In this document: positions 17,107 to 57,550 of the stretch, piece by piece
Numbering within the stretch: the stretch's first letter is position 1
Layout of the letters: every line of letters begins with the position of its first letter
Source of the DNA: Oscillospiraceae bacterium
Lineage (GTDB): Bacteria > Bacillota > Clostridia > Oscillospirales > Ruminococcaceae
Length of the DNA: 57,550 nucleotides
Direction: 5' to 3'
Assembly (NCBI GenBank): GCA_017465665.1
Contig: JAFTVU010000024.1
Location: 1 to 57,550, forward strand
Notes under the pieces: model-generated
Seen by the model: only the letters and a program-made list of their open reading frames with translations
Database searches by the model: none
What the model was told of the DNA's origin: nothing
Translations under genes and position numbers: made by a program

Positions 17107-17123
17107 CCTTCGGTCATTTAACC
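17097..17123. repeat. Perfect palindrome over the GNAT stop codon
   Basis: GGTTAAATGACC (17097-17108) and GGTCATTTAACC (17112-17123) with a TTC loop. It contains the GNAT stop (17104-17106) and could act as its terminator. It opens the hairpin-rich block. Confidence 0.85.
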
Positions 17124-17251
17124 GACTTTTCCGTTTCCAATTCCCCTTAAGGGAATTGGATTTTGCTGCGCAAAACCACTCCAAAGTTAAAGCGGAACAC
17201 CGCCATAGGGTCAATCGCTTTGCGATTATTTCTCCGACTTTGCCCTTTCGC
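17117..17251. repeat. 135-base direct repeat, copy A, with paired hairpin module
   Basis: 131 of 135 bases match copy B at 17336-17470. Hairpins within it: CCAATTCCC / GGGAATTGG (17137-17159), TTTTGC-TGC-GCAAAA (17161-17175), GCGG-AACA-CCGC (17192-17203) and AATCGC-TTT-GCGATT (17212-17226). An outer CAAAGT / ACTTTG pairing brackets the latter two. A minus-strand open frame over both copies repeats the same peptide and looks like a by-product, not a gene. Confidence 0.9.
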
Positions 17252-17287
17252 TGACGGAGGGTCAGCGATTTCGCTTCGCGAAACCAC
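17249..17287. repeat. Paired hairpin module, copy E
   Basis: CGCTGAC (17249-17255) / GTCAGCG (17261-17267), then directly ATTTCGC-TTC-GCGAAACCAC. It has the same two-hairpin plan as copies A-D but different stem-1 bases with pairing preserved. Confidence 0.75.
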
Positions 17288-17335
17288 GGCAAAGTGATCT
17301 GGCTGCGTATCGATAATGAAAATGCGGAGCAATTG

Positions 17336-17470
17336 TTTAACCGACTTTTCCGTTTCCAATTCCCCTTAAGGGAATTGGATTTTGCTGCACAAAACCACTC
17401 CAAAGTTAAAGCAGAACACCGCCATAGGGTCAATCACTTTGCGATTATTTCTCCAACTTTGCCCTTTCGC
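17336..17470. repeat. 135-base direct repeat, copy B
   Basis: Second copy, 219 bases after copy A. The four differences (17389, 17413, 17436, 17455) are all G in A and A in B, and each is the G of a CpG in copy A. The first three each break a hairpin base pair that copy A keeps. Confidence 0.9.
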
Positions 17471-17471
17471 A

Positions 17472-17559
17472 GTGTGCCCGCAAGCGGTCACCCTGCAAAC
17501 TTCGTTTCGCTTTTCCCTTATGGAAAAGCGATTTTGCTACGCAAAACCACTGCGTTTGC
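17472..17559. repeat. Paired hairpin module, copy C (full-length type)
   Basis: A GTG...CAC hairpin (17472-17491) is followed by an outer GCAAAC (17495-17500) / GTTTGC (17554-17559) pair. Inside are CGCTTTTCC / GGAAAAGCG (17508-17530) and TTTTGC-TAC-GCAAAA (17532-17546). The whole layout recurs at 56780-56868. Confidence 0.8.
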
Positions 17560-17632
17560 CTGTGGAGTAATGCCAATGGCGATTTGCTGCATCGGCATTA
17601 TACAACGGTGTTAAAAGCCCTTTCCAAAACTG

Positions 17633-53286: not shown

Positions 53287-54210
53287 ATGTTATACGAAAA
53301 TGTTTCTGAGCTTATCGGCGGCACTCCGCTGCTGCATATAAGCAGATTTGCAGAGAAGAGCGGCGCAGAGGCCGAGCTGTATGCAAAGCTGGAGCGCAGT
53401 AATCCCGCAGGCAGTGCAAAGGACAGAGTTGCCCTGTACATGATAAGGGACGCGGAAAAGCGTGGTCTGCTGAAGCAGGGCGGAGTTATCATAGAGCCCA
53501 CCAGCGGCAACACGGGTATAGGTTTGGCGGCTGTGGGTGCAAGCCTTGGCTACCGTGTGATACTCACCATGCCGGATACCATGTCCGTAGAGCGCAGGCA
53601 GCTTATTGCGGCCTATGGTGCAGAAGTAGTACTGACACCCGGTAAGGATGGAATGCAGGGCGCTGTTGCAAAGGCAGAGGCGCTTGCAAATGAGCTTGGC
53701 GGATTTGTTGCAGGCCAGTTTATAAATCCTGCTAATTCGCTTGCTCATTATGAGACTACTGGCCCTGAGCTGTGGTCGGATATGAACAGCGATATCGACA
53801 TTTTCGTTGCAAGTGTAGGTACGGGTGGTACTCTTACAGGCGCGGCAAGATATCTCAAGGAGCAGGATCCCGATATTCGTATAGTTGCGGTAGAGCCTGA
53901 GGATTCTCCGCTGCTTTCTCAGGGTAGATCAGGTCCTCACAAGATACAGGGAATAGGCGCTAACTTTATTCCCGAGGTGCTGGATAAGTCACTCATAGAT
54001 GAGATACTGACCGTATCCGCAGAGAATGCATTCGATTGCGGCAGACGAATTGCCCGTACAGAGGGAATACTTGTTGGTATTTCAAGCGGTGCGGTGCTTT
54101 CGGCGGCTGTGGAGCTTGCACATCGCCCTGAAAACAAGGGCAAGAGGATAGCAATGGTGCTGACTGATACGGGCGAACGTTATCTTTCATCTGAGATGTT
54201 TGCGGAGTAA
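53287..54210 (+). CDS. cysK: Cysteine synthase (O-acetylserine sulfhydrylase)
   Basis: PLP enzyme making cysteine from O-acetylserine and sulfide. 307 residues. The PLP lysine is in ERSNPAGSAKDR, the phosphate/substrate loop is PTSGNTGIGLA, and VGTGGTLTGAARYLKEQ and GIGANFIPEVLDKSLIDEI complete the family set. It begins 12 bases after the kinase gene, behind AAAGGAG. CysM-type enzymes are related, but the GIGANFIP stretch favours CysK. Confidence 0.95.
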   Translation: MLYENVSELIGGTPLLHISRFAEKSGAEAELYAKLERSNPAGSAKDRVALYMIRDAEKRGLLKQGGVIIEPTSGNTGIGLAAVGASLGYRVILTMPDTMSVERRQLIAAYGAEVVLTPGKDGMQGAVAKAEALANELGGFVAGQFINPANSLAHYETTGPELWSDMNSDIDIFVASVGTGGTLTGAARYLKEQDPDIRIVAVEPEDSPLLSQGRSGPHKIQGIGANFIPEVLDKSLIDEILTVSAENAFDCGRRIARTEGILVGISSGAVLSAAVELAHRPENKGKRIAMVLTDTGERYLSSEMFAE

Positions 54211-54219
54211 GGGGCGCTT

Positions 54220-55053
54220 ATGAAAAGGATAATAACAATACAGGATTTTTCCTGCGTAGGAAAATGCTCGCTTACATCCGCGCTGCCTGTTATCTCGGCG
54301 GCAGGAGTGGAGGCGTGCGGCATCCCGACGGCGTTGCTGTCTAACCATACAGGCTTCAGGACGTTCTATTCAAAGGATCTTACGGATGAGCTGATACCTG
54401 TGGGACGTCAGCTTAAGATAGAAAATATCGCATTTGACGCGGTGTACACGGGCTATATAGCTTCTGTACATCAGATGGAGCTTATTTCTGATTTCATTGA
54501 TGATTTCAAGGAAGAGAATACTCTTATATTTGTAGACCCTGTTATGGGCGATAACGGACGTATCTATTCAGGCTTATCAGCGGATTATCCGCAGCATATG
54601 CGTAAGCTGTGCGAAAAAGCGGATATTCTTGCTCCCAATCTTACAGAGGCTTGTCTGCTTACAGGCAGAGAATATTCGCCTACATTGCCCCGTAATGAGA
54701 TAGAGGCAATGCTGCGCGAGTTGTTTGCGCTGTGCGGAAGATATGCTTTCATAACAGGTATCCGCGAGGGTGAGATGATAGGTTCTGTCGGATTTGATGG
54801 TGAGAGCTTCCACAGCAGCTTCATGAAGCATGAGGATATAGTTTGTGCAGGCACAGGAGATATCCTGTCTGCCGCTTTCCTTGGCGCGGTCATGCGCGGA
54901 GCAGGGTACACACAGGCGCTGGATATCGCTGTAGGCTTCACCTATGAAGCAGTGCGGCTGACTGCGCTGGATCCTGACAGACGTCCCTACGGCGTGCAGT
55001 TTGAGCCTGCACTGCCCAAATACATACAAATGATATCTGAGATAAAAGGCTGA
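54220..55053 (+). CDS. pdxK: Pyridoxal/pyridoxamine kinase
   Basis: Ribokinase-fold kinase that phosphorylates pyridoxal, pyridoxamine or pyridoxine for PLP salvage. 277 residues. It begins ITIQDFSCVGKCSLTSALPVISAAG, has the ligand-binding GIPTALLSNHTGF and the ATP/anion-hole AGTGDILSAAFLGAVM near the C-terminus. The name pdxY is also used for this kind. Located 9 bases after cysK, a PLP enzyme, and 4 bases before the transporter gene; a vitamin-B6 link is plausible. Confidence 0.88.
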   Translation: MKRIITIQDFSCVGKCSLTSALPVISAAGVEACGIPTALLSNHTGFRTFYSKDLTDELIPVGRQLKIENIAFDAVYTGYIASVHQMELISDFIDDFKEENTLIFVDPVMGDNGRIYSGLSADYPQHMRKLCEKADILAPNLTEACLLTGREYSPTLPRNEIEAMLRELFALCGRYAFITGIREGEMIGSVGFDGESFHSSFMKHEDIVCAGTGDILSAAFLGAVMRGAGYTQALDIAVGFTYEAVRLTALDPDRRPYGVQFEPALPKYIQMISEIKG

Positions 55054-55057
55054 TAAG

Positions 55058-55933
55058 ATGGCAAAGCTGGAATTGAAAAGTCTGCACAAGGCGATAATAT
55101 ATCTTGTTATCTCTGCGCTGTTCTTTGCGTTCATGAATATGTTCGTGCAGCTTTCGGGAGATGTCCCGACGATACAGAAGACGTTCTTCCGCAATTTTTT
55201 CGCGCTGATAGTAGCAAGCGTAGTGCTGATGAAGAAAAAACAGAGTCCCATACCGCCAAAAGGTGCACGGCTGGATGTGCTGCTGCGTTCTGTTGTTGGT
55301 TATATCGGAGTGATCTGTAATTTCTTCGCACTGAGCAGGCTGAACATATCGGATGCTTCACTGCTTAATAAAATGTCGCCGTTCTTTGCGATAATATTCT
55401 CCATATTCCTGCTTAAAGAAAAGGCAAACAGGGTACAGTGGGCAATAATTCTTACTGCGTTTATCGGAGTGCTGTTCGTCATAAAGCCTACCTTTCACAA
55501 TGCGGAGCTTCTGCCATCGCTTGTAGGATTTCTCGGTGGCTTGTGTGCAGGCTGCGCTTATACATTCGTAAGGCGTGCGACAAAGCACGGAGCAAACGGC
55601 AGTAGTATAGTGTTCTGCTTTTCTGCGTTTTCCTGCATTGTTTCGCTGCCATTCGTGATATTCGGTTACAGCCCTATGACGCTGCAGCAGTTCCTTATGC
55701 TGGTAGGTGCAGGTCTTAGCGCTGCAGTAGGCCAGTTCTGCATAACCGCGGCATACTCTCACGCTCCTGCAAAGGAGGTCTCTATCTACGATTATTCGCA
55801 GATACTTTTCTCGGCAGCTATCGGGTTCTTTGTAATGGGGCAGCTGCCCGATATGCTCAGCGTTGTGGGATATGTAATAATAATCGCGGCGGCGTATGCG
55901 ATGTTCAGATACAATAACAGACGTGTTGAATAA
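55058..55933 (+). CDS. EamA/DMT-family transporter
   Basis: 291 residues, ten predicted transmembrane helices in two EamA repeats (AIIYLVISALFFAFMNMFVQLSG..., LVGFLGGLCAGCAYTFVRR...). Members export or import metabolites such as amino acids or sugars; substrate not readable. As last gene of cysK-pdxK-eamA, export of cysteine-related or B6-related compounds is possible but speculative. Confidence 0.85.
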   Translation: MAKLELKSLHKAIIYLVISALFFAFMNMFVQLSGDVPTIQKTFFRNFFALIVASVVLMKKKQSPIPPKGARLDVLLRSVVGYIGVICNFFALSRLNISDASLLNKMSPFFAIIFSIFLLKEKANRVQWAIILTAFIGVLFVIKPTFHNAELLPSLVGFLGGLCAGCAYTFVRRATKHGANGSSIVFCFSAFSCIVSLPFVIFGYSPMTLQQFLMLVGAGLSAAVGQFCITAAYSHAPAKEVSIYDYSQILFSAAIGFFVMGQLPDMLSVVGYVIIIAAAYAMFRYNNRRVE

Positions 55934-55970: not shown

Positions 55971-56633
55971 TTAATATGTAAGAGCGAAGAAATCTGTGCT
56001 TTGAACTTCTCCAAGCCGTACAAGCTCAGCTGCTGTTTCTGAGTTCATTTCGCCGTTGTAGAGAGCGTTCACATGCACGTCACGGAACAGACCAAGCTCC
56101 GTATACTGAGCATACAGCTCACCATCGATATAGACGTTGTATCTGTCTCCACAGGGAGCAAAAATGTACACCTCATCCTCGTCTGTAAATCTAACTATCT
56201 GCGGCAGGCAAGCAGAAGCCACACTGCCTCTTGGCAGCTCATTCAGCTCAATGCGGCTGATCGCTTCATCAAAGCTCAGCAGGCATAATGAATCTATTTC
56301 GTCAAAATTGAATTCCATCCTGCCGTCCACGCCGCCTGTTTCCTTGACTATCGCCGCCTCTATCTCAGCGAACATCAGCGGCTCGTAATCAAAGCCCTCG
56401 GGTATCTGAGTGAAGTTCACGTTGCCGTCCTGTGAGTTGCTCCAGATATCGTTCTGCCCGTTGAAATTTGTGTCGCCCATGAGGTAATAGTCGCCTGCCT
56501 TGATGACGATATATGTGCCGCTTTGGCGGTCATAATGCACCTCATCCGTGTGCACCTCGTCCGTGTAGTGTGTGCAGCCCGTCAGACAGAGCGTAAGGGC
56601 AAGTACAGCGGCAATAAAGCGTGTTATTTTCAT
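55971..56633 (-). CDS. Lipoprotein, unknown function
   Basis: 220 residues. A signal peptide with lipobox LTGC (cleavage before Cys20) makes it an exported, lipid-anchored protein. After it, a short duplication (TDEVHTDEVH) precedes a region with GDTNFNGQNDIW, resembling a calcium-binding loop. The rest is acidic, with no family I recognise. GGAGAAC precedes the ATG (AAAAAGGAG). Single-gene unit ending at the shared terminator; no clear promoter visible. Confidence 0.78.
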   Translation of the reverse strand: MKITRFIAAVLALTLCLTGCTHYTDEVHTDEVHYDRQSGTYIVIKAGDYYLMGDTNFNGQNDIWSNSQDGNVNFTQIPEGFDYEPLMFAEIEAAIVKETGGVDGRMEFNFDEIDSLCLLSFDEAISRIELNELPRGSVASACLPQIVRFTDEDEVYIFAPCGDRYNVYIDGELYAQYTELGLFRDVHVNALYNGEMNSETAAELVRLGEVQSTDFFALTY

Positions 56634-56696: not shown

Positions 56697-56724
56697 TAGG
56701 GGCGGATATGGAGATCCGCCCCTA
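56697..56724. repeat. Palindromic intergenic repeat (TAGGGGCGGAT type)
   Basis: TAGGGGCGGAT (56697-56707) / ATCCGCCCCTA (56714-56724), ATGGAG loop. This GGGCGGAT-type palindrome is familiar from intergenic regions of many Clostridia. It could end purH transcription on the minus strand. Confidence 0.75.
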
Positions 56725-56736
56725 CGTTTGATTTGA

Positions 56737-56775
56737 TCAATGGTGGAACAGACGAATGCCTGTGAATGCCATTGC
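56737..56775 (-). pseudogene. Orphan copy of the purH 3' end
   Basis: 39 bases whose minus-strand translation, AMAFTGIRLFHH plus stop, is identical to the real purH C-terminus at 56874-56912. The two stretches differ at five bases, all synonymous. Homology ends abruptly at 56776. It has no start and is not expressed as a protein. Confidence 0.85.
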
Positions 56776-56779
56776 CGAA

Positions 56780-56868
56780 TGGAGCAGCTTCGCAGCTCCA
56801 CTCTGCAAACTCGCTTCCGATTTCCCTTATGAAAATCGGATTTCACTTCGTGAAACCGTTCCGTTTGC
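56780..56868. repeat. Paired hairpin module, copy D, next to purH
   Basis: Hairpin TGGAGC...GCTCCA (56780-56800), outer GCAAAC (56805-56810) / GTTTGC (56863-56868), stem 1 CCGATTT / AAATCGG (56817-56839), stem 2 TTTCAC-TTC-GTGAAA (56841-56855). Same layout as copy C at 17472-17559 (outer span 64 versus 65 bases) with both sides of the stems changed. Confidence 0.8.
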
Positions 56869-56873
56869 TTATA

Positions 56874-57550
56874 TCAGTGGTGGAACAGTCTGATACCTGT
56901 GAATGCCATTGCTATATTATACTTGTCGCAGGTCTCGATAACGTTGTCGTCACGGATAGAGCCGCCGGGCTGAGCGATAAACTCAACGCCGCTCTTGTGT
57001 GCGCGCTCGATATTGTCGCCAAAGGGGAAGAATGCGTCAGAGCCGAGGGATACGCCCTTCATTGTATCCAGCCACTCGCGCTTAGCTTCGCGTGTGAATA
57101 CCTCGGGCTTGACCTTGAACCACTTCTGCCACTCGCCCTCTGCGAGAACGTCCATGTAGTCATCACCGATGTACAGATCGATGGTGTTGTCGCGATCTGC
57201 ACGGCGGATGTCGTCAACGAACTGGAGGTTCATTACCTGAGGAGACTGGCGGAGGTACCAGTTGTCAGCTTTCTGACCTGCAAGACGTGTGCAGTGGATT
57301 CTGGACTGCTGACCTGCACCGATACCGATAGCCTGACCGCCGCAAGCGTATGCAACGGAGTTGGACTGTGTATACTTCAGAGTGATGAGTGCAATAGCGA
57401 GATCGTGCTTTGCGCTCTCGGGGAGGATCTTGTTTGCTGTGGGCATATTAGCGAACAGCTCGTCATTGATTACCAGCTCGTTTCTGCCCTGCTCGAAGGT
57501 GATGCCGTAAACCTGCTTGCGCTCCAGGGGTTCGGGCATATAGTTCTCAT
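56874..57550 (-). CDS. purH: AICAR formyltransferase (PurH-type), 5' part outside window
   Basis: Ninth to tenth step of purine synthesis: formylates AICAR using 10-formyl-THF. The frame is open to the window edge, so only the C-terminal about 225 residues are seen. Family segments include ITLKYTQSNSVAYACGGQAIGIGAGQQSRIHCTRLAGQKAD and GSDAFFPFGDNIERAHKSGVEFIAQPGGSIRDDNVI, ending FTGIRLFHH. This end is typical of the stand-alone formyltransferase found in Clostridia, but a bifunctional PurH cannot be excluded. The methionine at 57539 is internal. Its last 13 codons recur at 56737-56775. Confidence 0.9.
   Translation of the reverse strand, partial: ENYMPEPLERKQVYGITFEQGRNELVINDELFANMPTANKILPESAKHDLAIALITLKYTQSNSVAYACGGQAIGIGAGQQSRIHCTRLAGQKADNWYLRQSPQVMNLQFVDDIRRADRDNTIDLYIGDDYMDVLAEGEWQKWFKVKPEVFTREAKREWLDTMKGVSLGSDAFFPFGDNIERAHKSGVEFIAQPGGSIRDDNVIETCDKYNIAMAFTGIRLFHH

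Follow-up and report, generated by a model that had tools for sequence, protein, structure and literature searches.

A second purH ending beyond a hairpin repeat in an Oscillospiraceae genome: a possible scar of recombination between alleles

How a gene can come to end twice, with the second ending stranded in non-coding DNA and differing from the first at silent positions only, is the question raised by the purH locus of an Oscillospiraceae bacterium (assembly GCA_017465665.1). The window analysed here is the whole of contig JAFTVU010000024.1, 57,550 nucleotides in length (contig C76 of this genome, G000), and the 3′ part of purH fills 56874..57550 of it on the minus strand, with 224 codons in the window and the rest of the gene continuing on contig C101. 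The product is a stand-alone AICAR transformylase (PF01808), which corrects the account given in an earlier, sequence-only reading of this DNA; its best NCBIfam match is NF005492, at a score under the model cut-off that is probably due to the window cutting the gene. A separate IMP cyclohydrolase (PF07826) adjoins purH in the sister species G007, and a 91% homolog of it follows on contig C101 of the present genome. The window ends inside purH, and its last stretch (57424-57550) is an exact 127-bp overlap with C101, likely an assembly-graph branch point.

Two endings with silent differences

The functional tail of the gene, i.e., its last 12 codons and the stop, lies at 56874..56912 (minus strand). 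The sequence-only reading had reported that these 13 codons recur at 56737-56775, and the positions proved exact: the second copy (56737..56775, minus strand), here termed the orphan tail, has the same 12 residues and stop without a gene body in front of it, so that both copies encode AMAFTGIRLFHH-stop. The five base differences that had been described as all synonymous are indeed silent, and they fall in four codons (GGT/GGC, ATC/ATT, AGA/CGT and CAC/CAT). The identity of the two tails is complete over the first 17 nt, and every mismatch lies beyond them. Their homology turned out to be longer than first described, 51 nt at 84% identity, running 12 nt past the stop into a spacer-like stretch (56725..56736, no strand assigned) that has 9 of its 12 nt in common with the spacer of the real gene. 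A 9/12 match to the real spacer was reached by 1 of 78 other distinct tail-and-spacer entries, in a comparison that excluded one self row (L056); given this rarity, the extension of the homology past the stop is suggestive only. Since no further site in the window has at least 6 of 11 residues of the purH ending, chance similarity of the two tails can be ruled out. Across the genus, the ending FTGIRLFHH was constant in 27 loci and read FTKIRLFHH in L010 and L012 (genomes G022 and G024).

The sequence-only reading had argued that a simple duplication followed by decay should not yield silent changes only, and this was upheld by simulation. The purH end was duplicated, the gene copy was restricted to silent change and the orphan was left to drift freely until five differences had accumulated; under four settings of transition bias and ancestor, with 20,000 runs each, all five differences were silent in 0.2-0.9% of the runs, the range reflecting the setting. 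Given that a silent-only outcome is this rare under the duplicate-then-drift null, the orphan tail most likely still belonged to a functional gene in the recent past, an argument that draws on five changes and does not amount to proof. A plain duplication of the purH end around the intervening repeat, followed by drift that remained silent by luck, would be roughly compatible with the divergence of the tail (5/39) and of the spacer (3/12), and short duplications beside hairpins are common; the rarity of the all-silent outcome nevertheless makes this explanation improbable.

A further explanation for the two tails is an artefact of assembly or binning, in which two strains were joined in a chimera. 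The assembly consists of 155 contigs with an estimated contamination of 8.8%, and the contig ends inside purH with the exact overlap to C101 described above. On the other hand, the tails are identical over 17 nt only at their start, which is short for a k-mer join, and both of the blocks that flank the junction have homologs in sister species G007. We consider an artefact very unlikely.

Relation of the two tails to other purH genes

A 39-mer pattern of the orphan tail that allowed either codon at the last two His residues, and TAA or TGA as the stop, matched eight loci in a species-level genome collection, namely five Ruminococcus MAGs, one Lachnospiraceae MAG and two Bacteroides strains. The exact orphan 39-mer terminates a purH frame in the MAG of Ruminococcus sp. 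L049, as read from the preceding 100 codons, while the remaining seven loci carry 37-38 of the 39 nt, i.e., are 1-2 nt off the orphan, the two Bacteroides strains having tails 38/39 identical to it. Near-exact tails as far away as Bacteroides show that convergent codon choice does occur in this highly conserved end, so that these matches may reflect it and do not name the donor; the 9/12 match of the spacer would suggest a source closer than another genus. The view that the two tails represent diverged functional alleles, put forward in the sequence-only reading, thus finds support in the rarity of a silent-only outcome and in the orphan being equal or nearly equal to working purH ends elsewhere.

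The comparison with sister species G007 bears on which of the two tails is native. The purH of the window is identical to that of G007 at 604 of 675 nt (89%), with 62-71 of 75 positions identical per 75-nt bin. Against G007, the functional tail shows five differences in 39 nt (P 0.38 for five or more), a divergence like that of the rest of the gene, whereas the orphan tail shows nine in 39 (P 0.016), and none of the 213 in-frame 39-nt windows of purH reaches nine differences. Since the divergence of the functional tail matches that of the gene and the divergence of the orphan exceeds that of all 213 windows, the functional tail behaves as the native one, and the orphan as the odd one, in this comparison. 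Such a comparison would not reveal a replacement by the allele of a very closely related strain. The earlier proposal that the gene received a new end and left its old one behind is not supported by these results, given that it is the functional tail, and not the orphan, whose divergence follows that of the vertically inherited gene; the direction of that event is probably reversed.

The earlier direction, stripped of any integrating element, survives in the form of allele replacement, whereby the resident tail was duplicated or displaced and purH was later replaced by the allele of a near relative through homologous recombination, so that the orphan would be a relic of the resident allele. 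Such a course would explain the silent-only differences as well as the introduction of a foreign tail would, and it would explain the shared 9/12 of the spacer better. Both kinds of tail are present in the genus: of its 29 tails, 11 are nearer the orphan, nine are nearer the functional tail and nine are tied, so the donor of the orphan was possibly itself within the genus. Yet comparison with G007 gives the current tail and gene the appearance of vertical inheritance, and the genes upstream are largely collinear with those of that species; we therefore hold allele replacement to be possible but on the whole unlikely.

The hairpin interval and the question of an integrating element

The interval between the tails (56776..56873, minus strand) comprises 98 bp made up of a short spacer, a hairpin repeat and a third hairpin. 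The repeat has the ends GCAAAC/GTTTGC and two inner hairpins, and the RNA fold of the hairpin stretch has a z of -4.4, with 0 of 200 shuffles equally stable. Relatives of it lie in the window at 17132, 17351 and 17503 and on contigs C42, C9 and C32, and Rfam gave no match anywhere in the window at the gathering score. In the predicted fold, TTGC of the repeat and GCAA of the orphan tail form the closing pairs of the third hairpin (minus strand, GAGTGGAGC...GCTCCATTC), so that its far arm may extend into the four bases that open the orphan. A comparable hairpin in the 17503 relative looks, by eye, as if sequence of the repeat itself closes it; this closure is absent from the minimum-energy fold, which was computed on an excerpt that truncates the hairpin. 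The GCAA that opens the orphan could accordingly be assigned either to the repeat or to purH, as would be the case for a join at very short homology.

The repeat is short, contains several hairpins, has relatives elsewhere in the genome and is located behind genes, features that it has in common with REP/MITE-like dispersed hairpin repeats. At none of its six other copies, whose positions are given above, was a gene-tail repeat recognised, and, as stated, the window holds no Rfam match at the gathering score. The flanks of the copies contain a 22-nt pair with 73% identity at C32 and an AT-rich 31-nt pair with 71% identity at C9, both of which were taken for chance.

The sequence-only reading had likened the arrangement to integrating elements that restore the 3′ end of the gene they enter. 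Gene restoration by genomic islands is established, as passages of two papers describe (PMC4383910, PMC12884075), and such islands, with their tyrosine integrase and attL/attR, share with the present locus a working end, an intervening stretch, a displaced fragment in the same orientation and an identical core at the insert. A scar of site-specific integration would fit this geometry, with a small or now deleted element crossing over in the 17-bp core GCAATGGCATTCACAGG and supplying a synonymous end, given that the stretch of 17 identical nt directly abuts the insert and the mismatches are confined to the part farther away from it. However, the same 17-nt identity was found in 23 of 271 comparable tail pairs that differ at exactly five nt. 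Moreover, islands are kilobases long and the tails here are 98 bp apart; the contig carries no tyrosine integrase, as the four PF00589 matches of the genome lie on contigs C98, C97, C9 and C26 and contig C76 has none in a search that covered tyrosine integrases. A tail supplied by an element should also look foreign, and the working end here looks native.

Recurrence elsewhere was examined with a 22-residue tail query in a sample of 396 family genomes. The query matched 350 of the 396, and 23 had at least two matches, among them the present genome, in which the orphan was found at E = 0.0036 and 86% identity. No stranded purH tail other than this one was recognised in the sample, at a sensitivity that shorter or more decayed tails would escape. 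The second matches of G037, G174, G179, G046, G063, G156, G287 (one of two) and G306 were scanned in DNA and included no stranded tail; 13 further second matches were judged by the table only (E 0.14-1.5, 38-63% identity), and G292 has, by the table, two purH-length frames. The matches in G046 and G156 are long frames ending in MVFTGMRHFKH or TVFTGMRHFKH, which, together with the best match in G133, were taken to be bifunctional purH. Within the genus, 27 of 29 loci were aligned downstream and had no second tail; the other two, L010 and L012, were viewed in part.

Two exact tail patterns matched nothing in IMG/VR, where the purH relatives amount to seven loci with 30-57% identity. Thirty-one phage records matched purH, and the three that were scanned (L068-L070) all have purH-length frames; a DNA search of the phage set returned five records, two of them also among the 31, and none covered 80% of the query. 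In titles and abstract openings of the literature, the matches listed contained no report of purH as an integration site. Record CP103207 from Bacteroides xylanisolvens, a 14.8-kb sequence with a purH end, was considered as a plasmid or attP carrier and rejected; its purH is split over several frames, and it was read as a chromosomal fragment whose other frames look chromosomal by eye.

Given the lack of a tyrosine integrase on the contig, the 98-bp distance between the tails and the failure to recognise a second case in the family sample or a gene-tail repeat at the other hairpin copies, the integrating-element claim found no support, and we regard an integration scar as quite improbable. We attach a very small probability to a still more compact version, in which an integrase-less hairpin element of ~120 bp, mobilised in trans, would use the 17-bp core to enter a purine gene at its 3′ end, bringing a synonymous copy of that end with it. 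If this were true, the hairpin element would be a gene-restoring integrative unit far smaller than the known islands.

Neighbouring genes and a proposed recombination scar

Beyond the orphan tail and its spacer-like 12 nt lies a hairpin with the arms TAGGGGCGGAT/ATCCGCCCCTA (56697..56724, no strand assigned), which is flagged as terminator-like on the plus strand only and ~26 bp of which are also found on contigs C75, C34 and C3. The TAGGGGCGGAT hairpin is a short dispersed repeat that occurs in at least nine other genomes as well. It is followed by a putative lipoprotein gene (55971..56633, minus strand) with a lipobox, LTGC, recognised by eye. The protein matches nothing in Pfam or NCBIfam, and a homolog at E 0.001 was absent from the 42 other genus genomes searched; among 396 family genomes it has four weak matches besides its own (E 0.001-0.009). 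Among 36 loci from outside the genus, purH is followed by a lipoprotein gene in eight by script and in 15 by reading of the N-termini, these loci having been chosen non-randomly, by tail similarity, and including a few near-duplicates. Within the genus, the script found this order in 0 of 28 loci examined, some of them with little downstream sequence. One locus, L048, combines a tail 38/39 identical to the orphan with a GTAGGGGCGGAT hairpin and then a lipoprotein gene. The gene order alone would suggest that the lipoprotein gene travelled with the orphan tail; against this, the lipoprotein of the window has no significant similarity to the proteins behind purH elsewhere, and its GC is ordinary (no outlier among 62 frames).

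The next block (53287..55933, plus strand) contains genes for a PALP enzyme, a pyridoxal-kinase-like protein and an EamA transporter. All 10 other genus loci that were read have the kinase and EamA genes together, and the PALP gene was matched in two of them (G007 and G005), some of the loci being cut short. In sister species G007 the PALP-kinase-EamA block lies on contigs C2 and C12, away from purH, whereas contig C101 of the present genome, on the upstream side of purH, is largely collinear with contig C10 of G007. The neighbours at the 3′ junction of purH have thus changed relative to the sister species. Since the genes after purH, and those after EamA, are variable across the genus, a breakpoint at the 3′ end of purH is not unusual by itself. 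Behind EamA in G007, a degenerate relative of the hairpin repeat was seen by eye (L062 3340-3460, on contig C2).

The explanation that we favour, at roughly an even chance of being right, is that recombination left the orphan as a scar, attaching the end of a different purH allele on the far side of the native gene's hairpin repeat. The native purH would have retained its own ending and its downstream hairpin repeat, and DNA starting inside the ending of another purH allele would have been joined behind that repeat. The donor may have been another lineage, possibly one with the purH-lipoprotein order that occurs outside the genus. Besides the tail, the transferred piece may have brought the hairpin that follows the orphan and, if the two travelled together, the lipoprotein gene. 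The join would lie in the repeat's far arm; because GCAA at this position could be part either of the arm or of the start of the tail, a short-homology (illegitimate) join is likely. This scar is favoured by the silent-only differences, by the presence of the orphan tail in other lineages, by the native character of the functional tail and by the neighbours that changed relative to G007. The unlikeness of the lipoprotein to those behind purH elsewhere, together with its ordinary GC, counts against it, as do the fragmented assembly and its estimated contamination.

Scars of illegitimate or homology-facilitated recombination are known in general, and the present locus is like them in having a truncated, foreign-looking gene end beside an intact native gene, a turnover of neighbours at this position and a join with minimal sequence in common. 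Interpreted as such a scar, the locus would be a compact record of purH allele recombination, in which a second, recently functional gene end has been fixed in non-coding DNA, and the silent-only differences in combination with a sister genome would be usable to date and orient such an event. A new mechanism is not indicated unless strains show repeated units of tail plus hairpin.

Relatives of the hairpin repeat are also clustered elsewhere in the window. At 17117-17560 three of them stand in a row behind a short frame that is acetyltransferase-like by eye, and within this stretch (17117-17470) a 135-nt hairpin unit is present in tandem, as copies 97% identical at a spacing of 219 bp.
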